NCBI GenBank assembly: GCA_029783825.1
Contig: JAREIK010003426.1
Location: forward strand, 276,985-340,984
Reading direction: 5' to 3'
DNA length: 64,000 nucleotides
DNA from: Sapria himalayana
Lineage: Eukaryota > Streptophyta > Magnoliopsida > Malpighiales > Rafflesiaceae
Part shown: piece by piece, positions 6,490-19,525 of the stretch
How the letters are laid out: every line of letters starts with the position of its first letter
Numbering within the stretch: the first letter of the stretch is position 1
Made by a program: the position numbers and the translations under genes
Notes under the pieces: generated by a model
Seen by the model: only the letters and a program-made list of their open reading frames with translations
The model's database searches: none
Told to the model about the DNA's origin: nothing

Positions 6490-6501
6490 CACTACAAGAA
6501 A

Positions 6502-6760
6502 TATCCCAAATAACTAGGTAAAATTCCCTAGCTAAATGGAAGTTTTCCGTCACTAAAGTGGATATAAGAATGGATTAATAATGGAACATTTTCTTAATCT
6601 AAAGTGCTTGTCACAAAAATTATTTAGTAAATATATTCTCTAGCAAAATTAGAGAGTGAAAATTCTCTCTCTAATTTGTGAGAGAATATTTCGTAGTTAA
6701 ATTAGCGAGGGAAAAAATCTCTAACTATTTTAATTCCATAATTATTTTCACATTTTTAAT
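6502..6760. repeat. left subterminal repeat region of the outer CACTA element
   Basis: Motifs such as ATTCCCTAGCTAAATGG, TTAGCGAGGGA and TTTTCCGTCACTAAA recur within 250 bp of the terminus. The start is homologous to the left end of the inner element at 11668 onward (same order of CCCTAGCTAAATGG, then a CATCACTAAA-like block, then CTAAAGTG). In En/Spm elements such arrays bind the regulatory transposase; here that role is inferred. Confidence 0.75.
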
Positions 6761-6771
6761 TTTTTACATTA

Positions 6772-7024
6772 AATTTAATTACATATTTTTAAATTTTTAT
6801 ATTAAATTTAATAAAAACTTAAACTATAAAACATTAATTATTATTAACAAAAAATAAAATTAGTTAATAAAATATTTTGATACAATATGTTACAAAGTTA
6901 AAACAGAATCATAACAAAATTTGATTACATCTTATTCTTCATCAATGTATGTAATGACAATACATAAAGTATAATATGTCAGTGAAATTGATGTTGCTTT
7001 CTCTCCCTCAACTCCTCAAGATCT
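6772..7024. repeat. copy A of the element-internal conserved block
   Basis: AT-rich DNA ending in the landmarks CATAAAGTATAAT, GATGTTGCTTTCTCTCCCTC and CTCCTCNNGATC. Related sequence occurs at 12171-12815 and 13430-14059, after the left subterminal region of the inner element and again further in. The block therefore looks like part of the CACTA family backbone. A coding role is not evident, as all three copies carry different stops. Confidence 0.6.
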
Positions 7025-7191
7025 GCATACAGTTCTAGCACCTAAGCATGTCCCTCCATGGCCATCTACATTGCTTCTTTTAGTTGTATTCTACATTTCC
7101 TATCTACCTCTAACTTATTCTTCCTTTTATCTGCCAATGCCCTTTTTGTATCTAGCTGCTCTCCCAACAGCACTTTTTTTAACCTTGCGAT
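7020..7191 (-). pseudogene. KIN12: captured kinesin-12 (phragmoplast kinesin) exon fragment
   Basis: The minus-strand translation shows a charged coiled-coil-like stretch ending QLKEAM, stop, MAMEGHA, stop, VLELYADLEE. Plant kinesin-12 proteins (PAKRP1/POK group, plus-end motors at the phragmoplast) carry a stalk segment of the form KC-EELKEAMQMAMEGHARMLEQYADLEEKH. The order and spacing match with two stops replacing Q and R positions. The upstream residues EQLDTKRALADKRK also fit the preceding family segment. A splice-acceptor-like CAG lies at 7192-7194, suggesting the exon edge. The right limit overlaps copy A of the internal block by a few bases (GAGGAG microhomology), so the exact junction is uncertain. 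Only about 57 codons of a protein of well over 1000 residues are present and there is no motor domain. It is not functional. Confidence 0.72.
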
Positions 7192-7707
7192 CTGTTGCAT
7201 ATATGGATACTTGTGCATGTGTGTGTGTAAACACACACACACACACATGCACTTTCATGCAAATACACATACCATCAAAGACAACAGAAGAAATAATCTT
7301 ACGCTTAAAAAACACACATACAGGTCTCTCAGGTATGGTCAACATCTGCTAGTTCTTTGTCCTCTAGTACTCCACACAAATAAAAAAAATTTTTACACCT
7401 GCATATGGAGTATAATATACTACATTTACAAACCAAAAAAGAACACAATATAATGCCGCTGATAAATAGATTGACTAGCACATGCAACACAAACTACCAA
7501 TTGCTAGAAATTTAACACAATGCGATAATCATGAGCTTATTTTTAAATTATCAAATCAAGATTTCTAGTGAATTACCCATCAACATATTCTTCTTTGTTT
7601 CCTATCTTCACTCATCAATCCGTGGTTAATTATAAGAAAGTTAGAAAGTGCCAAACAAAATGGAAATGGAAGTTAAAATGATAACAGGCTGCGTGGTATT
7701 GAAATTT
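7192..7707. other. interval with no recognised gene
   Basis: AT-rich spacer inside the CACTA element. It holds a short alternating TG/CA tract at about 7218-7248. Both strands have short open frames there, but they contain Cys/Val or His/Thr repeats created by the tract. No domain is recognised. Confidence 0.6.
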
Positions 7708-7903
7708 GCACACTTGTAGGTTCATATAGGAATCCACTGAAGCAAAGAAACTTGAAAGAAACCAAAAAATCAGAAAAAAAATGCAATGCATAAGAAAAGA
7801 ACACAAGGTAGCTCACCTTTGTATTCTATTTTCCACTTAGTTTTACAATGACCATCTTCCTAGTCAAGTTGTTAAGAAAAGGCTTGGGATTAACATAGAT
7901 GGT
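7708..7903 (-). pseudogene. SNRPF: captured snRNP Sm-F gene fragment, two exons with intron
   Basis: On the minus strand an acceptor-like TGCAG (7904-7908) precedes an exon at 7903-7817 translating TIYVNPKPFLNNLTRKMVIV, then after a 1-base loss LKW-IEYK, followed by a donor GTGAGC. This matches the start of plant Sm-F (ATVPVNPKPFLNNLTGKPVIVKLKWGMEYKG), including the known early intron just after the first two codons. About 65 bp later a second acceptor-like TTTCAAG (ending 7751) leads into an exon at 7750-7708 encoding SVDSYMNLQ, the next Sm-F segment. Sm-F is a core protein of the spliceosomal Sm ring. The intron between the exons shows capture from genomic DNA rather than from mRNA. The frameshift, a stop and the missing C-terminal half make it a dead fragment. 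Confidence 0.82.
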
Positions 7904-8464
7904 CTGCAATATTCAGTAATAAAAAAACTAATGAACGATACTATAATGCACGTATGCATCAGACATTACTCTGCATTTACTTAAAAATACATAAGCATGT
8001 ATATATGCAATATACATGCATACAGTGAGAATATAATATAACTATATGTGTCCAATCACATACACGCACACACACATGCACACACTATTTTCATATCTTC
8101 TCATATTTTTTTATCTTGTCCATATATTACACCTTTCTAGTTCAACTTAATCATTGATCCATGGAAATGGTCATCACCAAAAATCACACAACCTAAAATT
8201 AATATAATATACTTGATGAATAACCTCATACAAACAATGCCCTTATATACCATGTTATTTTTATTACGGCAACTCTTAGGATGAATAACCTCGATATCAC
8301 TCTCGAAGTGTACTTGTGTGTGCCAGACATGCATCAATGAGTATGACATGCTAATTATTCCTCAAAAAAGCTATCAATAGAACAACATATCAATTGATAA
8401 AGTAGAGAACATGGCACCCAGCAAAACATAAGCAATATCACAAACATCATGCTCATCAATATGA
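7904..8464. other. interval with no recognised gene
   Basis: AT-rich sequence with a CACACA-rich patch at about 8060-8088. A minus-strand frame at 8137-8349 (70 codons, beginning MSYSLMHVWH and including DIEVIHPKSCRN) has ordinary composition and is followed by nothing recognisable. It could be another captured fragment, but I do not recognise a family. Confidence 0.45.
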
Positions 8465-17260: not shown

Positions 17261-17261
17261 T

Positions 17262-17321
17262 ACGTTTATTAAGTTTATTAAGTTTTATTAAGTTTTATTA
17301 AGTTTTATTAAGTTTTAAAAT
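17262..17321. repeat. TTTTATTAAG short tandem repeat
   Basis: Five near-exact tandem copies of a 10-11 bp unit TTTTATTAAGT. Confidence 0.85.
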
Positions 17322-17509
17322 TCCATTAATATTTTAATTTTAAATTATCAAAACATTTAATATACAATAAATATATATAAAATATAAAGACATCTTTTTT
17401 TTACTTAATAAATTATTTTCAACAAGTTAATATGTGTGTAGCAAGACACGCATGAAAACCAAACACCTTTTAATTTTTAATTATCGAATGAAATAAACAA
17501 TAAATATAT

Positions 17510-17597
17510 AAATAATTTCAAAAAATACATGTTTGGCCTTCCAAATGGGAAAACAAATTAAATGGCTACAAAATTTGTAAACTTAATATAGCAAGGC
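17510..17597. repeat. element-internal direct repeat of 9240-9315
   Basis: CTTCCAAAT, ATGGCTACAAAATTTG, AAACTT and ATATAGCAAGGCA occur in the same order and spacing at 9240-9315 and here. In the left copy the BPC fragment begins directly after ATAGCAAGGCA, so this sequence marks one edge of that capture. Confidence 0.75.
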
Positions 17598-18525
17598 AGA
17601 TATGAACAGATTATTGGTCTTCAAGTCACTTTCCTAAAAATCTATAGATACTCTTTATGTTAACAACTATATAAATATATATAATTTAGGTTTATAAATT
17701 TTAAGTATTCATATTAATTTTTATGAAGATAATATGAATTTATTTTAAAGGCATAGAATTTAATATTATTTAATATAATTTATAATTTATAAAATTCTAA
17801 AATTACTTAGTGAGATGAATATTAAGAAAATTTTATATTTATTAAATTTAATAACAATGAAATATTAAAAGCTATTAGTATAAATTTAACTCAATTATTT
17901 AGTTCTTATAAATTTTAATAGGGGCAAACATCTCTGTATTTATCTTTAAATATCAATTTATTTTGATTTAAATATTATAAAAAATTAGAAATTTTTTTAT
18001 AATTCAAAAATTTCCAATTTTTTAGTAATTCTTTTTTAAAAAATTTTATTTAGGAAGAAAACTATTTTTTATACTTAAAATAATTTTAATATTTACTAGT
18101 TTTTTCATTATTTATGATATTTTTATAAATATATTATATTTTATTATATAATGAATTATTTAATCTTTTTATTAGTATAAATTTTAATGTTTATTCATTT
18201 ATTTTTTAAAATATCTTTAAAAATTTTTAAAATTATAGAATTAATTTTTTTAATGTTATTGTAGTCTTTATTAATAGTTATTATAGTATTTATTTATAGT
18301 TATTGTAGTCTTTATTGCAATTAATTTTTTTTTGTATTAATATATTTTTTATATTATTTTTTATAATAATCTATTTTTATAATTATACGAGGAGAATGTG
18401 TCGTTCAAGAATCACTCATTTATAGACCATGACATATGTACAATTAATATAGAAAATTAAATATAATATTATAACAAATAATATATAAAAAAATTAAATC
18501 ATTAATGATTAGTGATAAAAATTAT
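17598..18525. other. AT-rich spacer
   Basis: Very AT-rich interior DNA of the CACTA element with A and T runs. A degenerate TTATTGTAGTCTTTATT unit recurs around 18258-18320. No gene is seen. Confidence 0.6.
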
Positions 18526-18529
18526 TTCT

Positions 18530-19043
18530 AGCCCAAATAGCTATGGAAATTCCTTAGCTAAATGGATATATTTTGTGAAAAAAAATTTAAGGAATAATCG
18601 CTTGCAATAAAATATAAAATAGTAAAAAAACATTTTGGATAATAATTTAGCGATGAATTTTGTCTCGAATAATTAGCTAGAGAAATTCCGTCGCTAAATT
18701 CATCGCCATATCCCTCGCTAAGTTTGTCGCTAAATTCTACGCTTTTATTTGCGAGAAATTCATGAAAATACATTAGAGACGGAAATTTGTTAACCAAATA
18801 TTTCCGTTGCTAATCTATCACTAAATTCATTGCTAAATTTTTCACTTTTCTTTGCGTGGAAATCTTCAAAAATATTAGCAATAGAATATTTTCAATCAAA
18901 TATTTCCATCTCTAATCCAACACTAATCCGTCAGAATTTTATTTTAATCTAAAATCAAAAATCCCTTGTTATTCCCTAGCTAATGCCTCACAAATTAGCT
19001 AGGGATATTATATCAAGGTAAATTTTCCTAGCTAAATCAATAT
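18530..19043. repeat. right subterminal repeats of the outer CACTA element
   Basis: GAAATTCCGTCGCTAAATTC, CATCGCCATATCCCTCGCTA, TAGCTAGGGATATT and similar motifs stand in both orientations up to the terminus. They are more diverged than those at 15890-16596, in line with an older element. Confidence 0.75.
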
Positions 19044-19525
19044 TTTCTTGTAGTGTTATCTATCTATCAATTAATCTGACTATTTATCTATCAATCTATC
19101 TTTCTATATCTTTATCTATCTATTTATCTCTCTCTATGTGTATATCTATCTATCTGTCTATCTGTCTATTTTTCTATTTATTTATCAGTCAATTTTTATA
19201 TATATATATCAATCTATCTATATGCATATTTGTATATCAATCTACATTTCTACCAGTCTATGTGTGTATTTGTCTATCAGTCTATCTTTCTATATCTTTT
19301 TATGTCTGTGTGTATATGTCTATCTATTTATCTCTTTATCTCTCTTTTTTATATGTCTATCTATTTAGCTATCTATCTATTTATCTATCAATCTATCTAT
19401 ATATCTGATGTCTGATTGTCAATCTATATGTCTATCTAACAATCTTTCTATCCATCCATCTATTTGTTTGTCTATTTGTTCTCTATCTATCTATCTATCT
19501 ATCTATATATCTATGCAGCTTTCTA

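Follow-up and report, generated by a model that had tools for sequence, protein, structure and literature searches.

We analyzed a 64-kb stretch of the Sapria himalayana genome (contig C3426:276985-340984; hereafter the window, positions 1-64000), which outside its insertions consists of a degenerate CTAT/GATA tetranucleotide array. Positions 6490-19055 of the window form a CACTA (En/Spm) element of 12.6 kb that carries broken pieces of several host genes. We propose that it is a non-autonomous Pack-CACTA element that gathered its cargo in at least two capture steps, inserted once into the tetranucleotide array, and was then multiplied by that array; as judged from sequence comparisons, we give this reading roughly two chances in three. 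All genome searches were made in the 2.06-Gb assembly that holds the window.

The outer ends at 6490 and 19055 read CACTACAAGAAA and TTTCTTGTAGTG; they are perfect 12-bp terminal inverted repeats starting with CACTA, and 3-bp target copies flank them, TTA on the left and TTA on the right, as an earlier note on this DNA had described. Random positions of the array agree over 3 bp by chance in 8.1% of cases, so that the TTA match by itself is weak to modest evidence. The phase of the array across the junction, evaluated with 0 to 6 bases dropped, fits only at 3 dropped bases for flanks of 40 and 80 bp, and at 1 and 5 instead of 3 for a flank of 120 bp. Subterminal repeats, as expected for the CACTA superfamily, are present at both outer ends, and a Pfam search of the six frames of the element found no transposase family at E ≤ 0.1, in keeping with a non-autonomous Pack-CACTA. 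The left end (L1, 6490-7017, plus strand) comprises the 12-bp terminal repeat, subterminal repeats and a backbone whose likeness to two further left backbones in the element (L2 and L3, see below) ends at 7017. The right end (R2, 18520-19055, plus strand, right flank TTA) has an inner border that resembles a left end lacking the 12-bp repeat; this likeness (18529-18566; scores of 47 for L1, 41 for L2 and 42 for a part of L2 taken in inverted orientation) is suggestive only.

Six host-gene pieces lie between these ends, all of them partial, broken and on the minus strand. As judged by database matches, four are firmly assigned (KIN-12, SmF, BPC and DPH5), and a PRK-type P-loop kinase and a DUF3752 protein are likely sources of the other two. 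The KIN-12, DUF3752, BPC, kinase and DPH5 pieces contain one to four in-frame stops each, and the SmF piece has one stop together with frame changes. The earlier note had named five minus-strand donors; four of these families gave significant protein matches and stand firmly, the P-loop kinase moderately. Of the additional coding-like intervals it had listed, 8760-9110 probably belongs to the DUF3752 piece, and the areas of 8137-8349 and 14170-14450 yielded no family: a Pfam search of the minus-strand pieces 8140-8361, 14062-14280 and 16926-17054 returned none, and 14268-14477 gave only noise (E 0.19). The piece 16926-17054 overlaps the remaining interval (16980-17240), the rest of which was covered by chunk scans only.

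The KIN-12 (phragmoplast kinesin) piece is a 146-bp exon fragment (7012-7157, minus strand; 63 codons, 2 stops) with both borders inside the donor exon. In a protein search, 84 of 107 candidates reached E ≤ 1, with a best value of 3.9e-10, and those that carry a name are all from plants. The closest KIN-12 gene found among the best 37 of 3,268 candidates, which were those scored, is C3432:76953-80098, whose open frame spans 944 amino acids; it is identical to the piece at 126 of 146 bases, versus 122 of 146 for a stop-containing copy on C1525. The likeness to the L1 backbone ends at 7017 and that to KIN-12 at 7012, at most 5 bp apart, which fixes the capture junction. A start of the kinesin piece at a splice site is ruled out, as the alignment to the host gene begins at 7157, inside the exon. 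Of the 40 rows listed in the genome search for KIN-12, 17 hold a different, stop-containing KIN-12 piece (residues ~812-878; for example C325:445734-445931), which is another amplified kinesin fragment.

The SmF piece (7329-7903, minus strand; PDB E 1.1e-20, Pfam LSM 8.5e-6) retains remnants of four coding exons with the introns between them and reaches the stop codon, and hence genomic DNA was captured. The probable DUF3752 (GPALPP-type) piece (8804-9139, minus strand) is C-terminal, with 4 stops in 112 codons; its match (E 0.0035) is under the Pfam cut-off and aligns up to profile position 150 of 151, and a PDB search gave no match. The BPC (BBR/BPC class II) piece (9309-10135, minus strand; Pfam GAGA_bind E 8.6e-22) derives from a plant-specific family; it is truncated near the C-terminus and has a 66-bp internal deletion relative to the host gene. 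An 85-bp repeat (9231-9314, plus strand), shared with 17514-17598 at 84.7%, sits at the BPC break. The probable kinase piece (10411-10605, minus strand) shows a P-loop followed by an MDGFHL motif and has PDB matches at E 0.0055-0.0068; in a search of 5.8 billion proteins, 2 of 55 candidates reached E ≤ 1, the better of them a PF00485 protein with 50% identity at E 0.018. Finally, the DPH5 (diphthine synthase) piece (16667-16822, minus strand; PDB E 4.5e-6) is N-terminal.

Probable parental genes are present in the same genome: the KIN-12 gene on C3432 and two BPC genes, at C88:1567404 and C1488:3480544, the stop-free BPC genes closest to the window piece among the scored hits (p-distance 0.145 and 0.161). 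The best 137 of 30,687 first-look BPC candidates were scored; 4 are free of stops and 133 contain them, most of the latter breaking near the same profile position as the 9309-10135 piece. A Pack-CACTA element is expected to hold host pieces whose source genes persist at other loci, and for KIN-12 and BPC such probable sources are at hand. A single normal gene region as the source, which the earlier note had set against capture, is ruled out, as the KIN-12 gene is not on the same contig as the BPC genes. Conserved motifs arising by coincidence would account for the modest kinase and DUF3752 scores, and for the other four donors this explanation is refuted by the KIN-12, SmF, BPC and DPH5 matches together with the two close host genes; overall we regard it as having next to no chance of being right.

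Two relatives with less cargo suggest how the element was assembled. The relative on C1563 is about 6.5 kb long, with a good left end and a right end changed at one base. Its left backbone continues without a break through the part absent from L1 and runs into 8468, DUF3752, BPC and the kinase. Beyond the kinase come an AT tandem, 1.3 kb of unrelated DNA, and parts like 17260-17544 and 18296-18699. The inner portion of the left backbone (8469-8650, plus strand), which the KIN-12/SmF block cuts off from L1 in the window, is contiguous with the rest of the backbone in this relative. KIN-12, SmF, the inner CACTA element described below and DPH5 were all absent from this relative when it was aligned with the window (plus-strand rows of at least 70 bits considered), and the missing DNA comprises the whole block 11452-17259, extending beyond the inner element itself. 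In the C1079 relative, which has a degenerate left end, the backbone likewise leads to DUF3752-BPC-kinase, and KIN-12/SmF is thus absent in both relatives examined. Two other loci, L051 and L052, carry 7949-8468, where the stretch that was read starts. Distances over BPC from the window are 0.014-0.051 for ten full copies of the element, 0.063-0.069 for L051 and L052, and 0.145-0.161 for C1079, C1563 and the two host genes.

Because the C1563 relative lacks three of the six pieces (KIN-12, SmF and DPH5), the cargo was probably added in steps, with at least two captures, which supports the repeated capture suggested in the earlier note. Loss of KIN-12/SmF in the relatives appears unlikely, since they retain the backbone that this block replaced. 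The C1563 and C1079 relatives occupy independent sites, which suggests that the older family transposed. The C1563 relative, too, is embedded in simple-sequence DNA, a degenerate TTC/CTT array.

The interior of the window element holds more ends of the same family. Left-type ends at 6490 (L1) and 11668 (L2) are followed by right-type ends at 16609 (R1) and 19055 (R2), giving the order L-L-R-R in one orientation. L2 (11668-12766, plus strand, left flank ACA) shares a 13-bp terminal repeat with R1 (15917-16609, plus strand, right flank TGA), which carries a long subterminal repeat array. Between them lies a third left backbone (L3, 13422-14038, plus strand) that is 77% identical to L2 and lacks the terminal and subterminal repeats; it scores 467 bits against L2, versus at most 57 bits in a reversed-sequence control with the AT tandem excluded. 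A DUF4283 domain piece (15054-15382, minus strand; E 1.9e-10 as a chunk), which we take to be of retroelement type, also lies inside the inner element. The inner ends at 11668 and 16609, the third left backbone, the DUF4283 piece, the C1563 relative with its smaller cargo and the insertion site common to the copies (see below) go beyond what the earlier note had recorded. Two side observations concern the inner element. A GC-rich stretch of degenerate triplets (12780-13290) is 83-93% identical between copies, low relative to most other segments, and 13294-13428 is found in the middle of the kinase segment in both relatives, so that kinase donor DNA may partly have landed beside L3.

The simplest account of the two inner ends would be plain nesting, in which a complete inner CACTA element (11668-16609) inserted into a finished Pack-CACTA and its target duplication mutated afterwards; intact 13-bp ends of the same family are what such a two-ended element would show. 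The flanks ACA and TGA share only 1 of 3 bases, so that no 3-bp target duplication is seen, and they are identical in 10 of 10 copies; at all 10 DPH5 loci compared, namely the window, three further loci and six of the ten full copies, R1 is likewise followed by TGA. Since every copy read shows it, this mismatch arose before the amplification. In addition, C1563 lacks the entire block 11452-17259 and not the inner element alone. We therefore consider nesting unlikely, if well short of negligible. The remnants L2, R1 and truncated L3, all in one orientation, are what internal ends of neighboring same-family insertions would leave in a fused Pack-TYPE element, and for the second block (11452-17259) we favor fusion of neighboring same-orientation insertions, at about even odds against gap repair. 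In the latter route, synthesis-dependent repair with template switching after excision would have copied the pieces in place of fusion. It suits patchwork copying, the 146-bp KIN-12 piece bordered inside an exon on both sides and the replacement of the backbone interior by KIN-12/SmF, and for that block it is an equal rival of fusion; by itself, it does not account for the additional ends, which point the same way and have unmatched flanks. Taken over the whole element, gap repair in place of fusion is a serious contender that we hold to be somewhat less probable than not.

Many other copies of the element exist in the genome, and ten full copies, picked from the best-scoring ones, were read whole. 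All ten share the same CTAT-array flank on the left and on the right, with single-base differences, and all 19 tested segments were found in each, SmF only to 25% in one copy. The left end gave 3,843 first-look candidates, of which the best 40 were scored, and all 39 of these other than that of the window align into the 10-bp flank; the DPH5 part gave 1,336, and the best 40, on 31 contigs, are 92-100% identical. Exact-pattern end searches miss variants, and most left-end and DPH5 candidates remained unscored. With these bounds, an exact left end preceded by the same 8-bp flank occurs 15 times in the genome; exact left ends whose target copy starts with A, C or G number 0, a count that leaves out the target flanks TVN and TTB. 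Around the copy near C3356:1806992, compared over three 10-kb stretches, the array resembles that of the window at 95.5% (3448-4536), 89% (19460-24522) and 94% (34837-42131). Nine contigs hold two scored DPH5 copies, and 6 of the 9 pairs are oppositely oriented, suggestive of inverted units in arrays.

From the borders shared by 10 of 10 copies, the absence of exact ends with a non-T target base, and an array that is 89-95% alike, it appears likely that one insertion was amplified together with its array. The alternative is that the composite reached its many sites by ordinary transposition with a preference for CTAT arrays. The older family was probably mobile, as the independent sites of C1563 and C1079 suggest, and C1563 too lies in a simple TTC array; the two flanks common to all ten copies, the lack of exact ends beside a target copy starting with any base but T and the similarity of the array around one copy in three stretches argue against it, and we consider such dispersal improbable.

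Based on these observations, the following history is proposed. A C1563-like ancestor, with DUF3752, BPC and kinase pieces between a left and a right end, would have transposed around the genome. In the line leading to the window element, the KIN-12/SmF block would have taken the place of the left-backbone interior, and, before or after that step, the block 11452-17259, bringing another CACTA copy and DPH5, would have replaced other DNA. This second block may have arisen by fusion of neighboring insertions in the same orientation, the fused unit then moving by means of its outermost ends. The composite would then have inserted at a TTA of the CTAT/GATA array, with later copies arising through array amplification instead of transposition. 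The order of steps, fusion as the origin of the extra ends and the array amplification are what we infer in this account.

Several points weigh against it. With respect to the cargo, the kinase and DUF3752 identities are moderate only, and the row for residues 875-1141 of the C3432 KIN-12 gene contains one TAG. With respect to the steps, the flanks of the C1563 relative (TCT and CCT, in TTC-rich surroundings unlike those of the window) agree at 2 of 3 bases, C1079 has nothing in common with the element past the kinase over the remainder of the 6.3 kb read, C1563 alone informs the right half of the proposed ancestor, and the second block fits gain in the window and loss in C1563 alike. The inner flanks may go back to an old target duplication that had already been lost when the amplification began, which would amount to plain nesting, and L3 may be an internal duplication. 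Finally, the array of the C3356 copy is only about 70% alike to the left of window position 3448, and only the best copies were sampled (40 of 3,843 and 40 of 1,336), so that independent insertions of the composite are possible among the rest.

We also evaluated whether the common orientation of the cargo reflects a bias, either in capture through the direction of transcription or in the survival of sense-oriented fragments, as the earlier note had suggested. All 6 host-gene pieces are indeed on the minus strand, with p = 0.03 in a two-sided sign test that is valid only if the events are independent. The relatives point to about three blocks, which are too few independent events, and the minus strand was searched more closely, the single-piece searches having used minus-strand pieces only; a bias is thus not established. 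The blind controls lean weakly toward the minus strand. A six-frame Pfam search gave 2 families on the minus strand and 0 on the plus strand. Chunk scans, 18 per strand over the cargo (excluding the backbones, 10618-11667 and 17570-18519), gave two sub-threshold plus-strand hits (0.0049 and 0.031), and on the minus strand BPC, DUF4283 and a weak NTPase; KIN-12, SmF, DPH5 and DUF3752 were not picked up. Against PDB, one of the three minus frames returned DPH5 at 6.8e-4 and the other two nothing better than 0.058; two of the three plus frames returned nothing under 0.48. An orientation statistic for CACTA cargo was not met in the literature listings and passages at hand, which is no proof of absence.

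Elsewhere in the window, the array switches strand twice, from GATA to CTAT over a non-array insertion at about 1700-3440 and from CTAT to GATA at about 38270, where no insertion is visible. A stretch near 3180 in the former insertion resembles a retrotransposon primer-binding site. A solo right-type CACTA end of opposite orientation (35139-35941; about 800 bp of subterminal repeats, TTA at its left) breaks off abruptly into the array, and no partner end was seen.

Several published systems resemble parts of this arrangement. Tgm-Express1, the soybean CACTA element of the wp allele, likewise bears pieces of several unrelated host genes, with intron and exon pieces of five between its ends (PMC1947982); it is 5.7 kb long and lies in an F3H intron, and its pieces are transcribed as exons, whereas the window element is 12.6 kb long, has inner same-family ends, is decayed and lies in a simple-repeat array. 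For Pack-CACTA and other Pack-TYPE elements, pieces from multiple loci, neighboring insertions in the same orientation, fused AB and BB elements and a proposed loss of internal ends are described (PMC8903248), and the fusion model has been published (PMC8903248; review, PMC13317346); unlike those cases, the element in the window combines several same-family ends with lower-cargo relatives, and its copies were probably spread by the array. The Tpn1 family of Ipomoea nil, non-autonomous and of the En/Spm type, also retains its ends around an interior of host-gene DNA, with copies called by their own target site duplications (PMC5105172), whereas full copies of the window type share one site. Mutator-like elements (MULEs) with multiple terminal repeats similarly have a target site duplication at the outer ends and none at the extra inner ends (PMC3310237); they belong to the Mutator superfamily, and that source reports no evidence of gene acquisition by the tandem-repeat forms. 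In Chenopodium, CACTA elements are also described as having taken up gene fragments and satellite DNA (PMC8978399), and among the titles and abstract beginnings listed in our literature search none concerned CACTA elements amplified with satellite arrays. A Pack-CACTA with five host fragments is already known in Tgm-Express1; what is unusual here is the presence of lower-cargo relatives together with the likely array-borne copying.

We consider it slightly better than an even bet that intermediates of a gene collector are preserved within one genome and that, after a single landing in CTAT/GATA repeats, the patchwork of host-gene pieces became a satellite passenger spread by array expansion. 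The relatives, likely source genes and exact junctions, all in one genome, provide a capture-step series for one Pack-CACTA lineage in which fusion and gap repair can be tested against each other. Annotation pipelines may count such pieces as gene copies (133 of the 137 scored BPC hits contain stops). More generally, the findings suggest a second path by which captured gene pieces may reach high copy number, carried along by a simple-repeat array.

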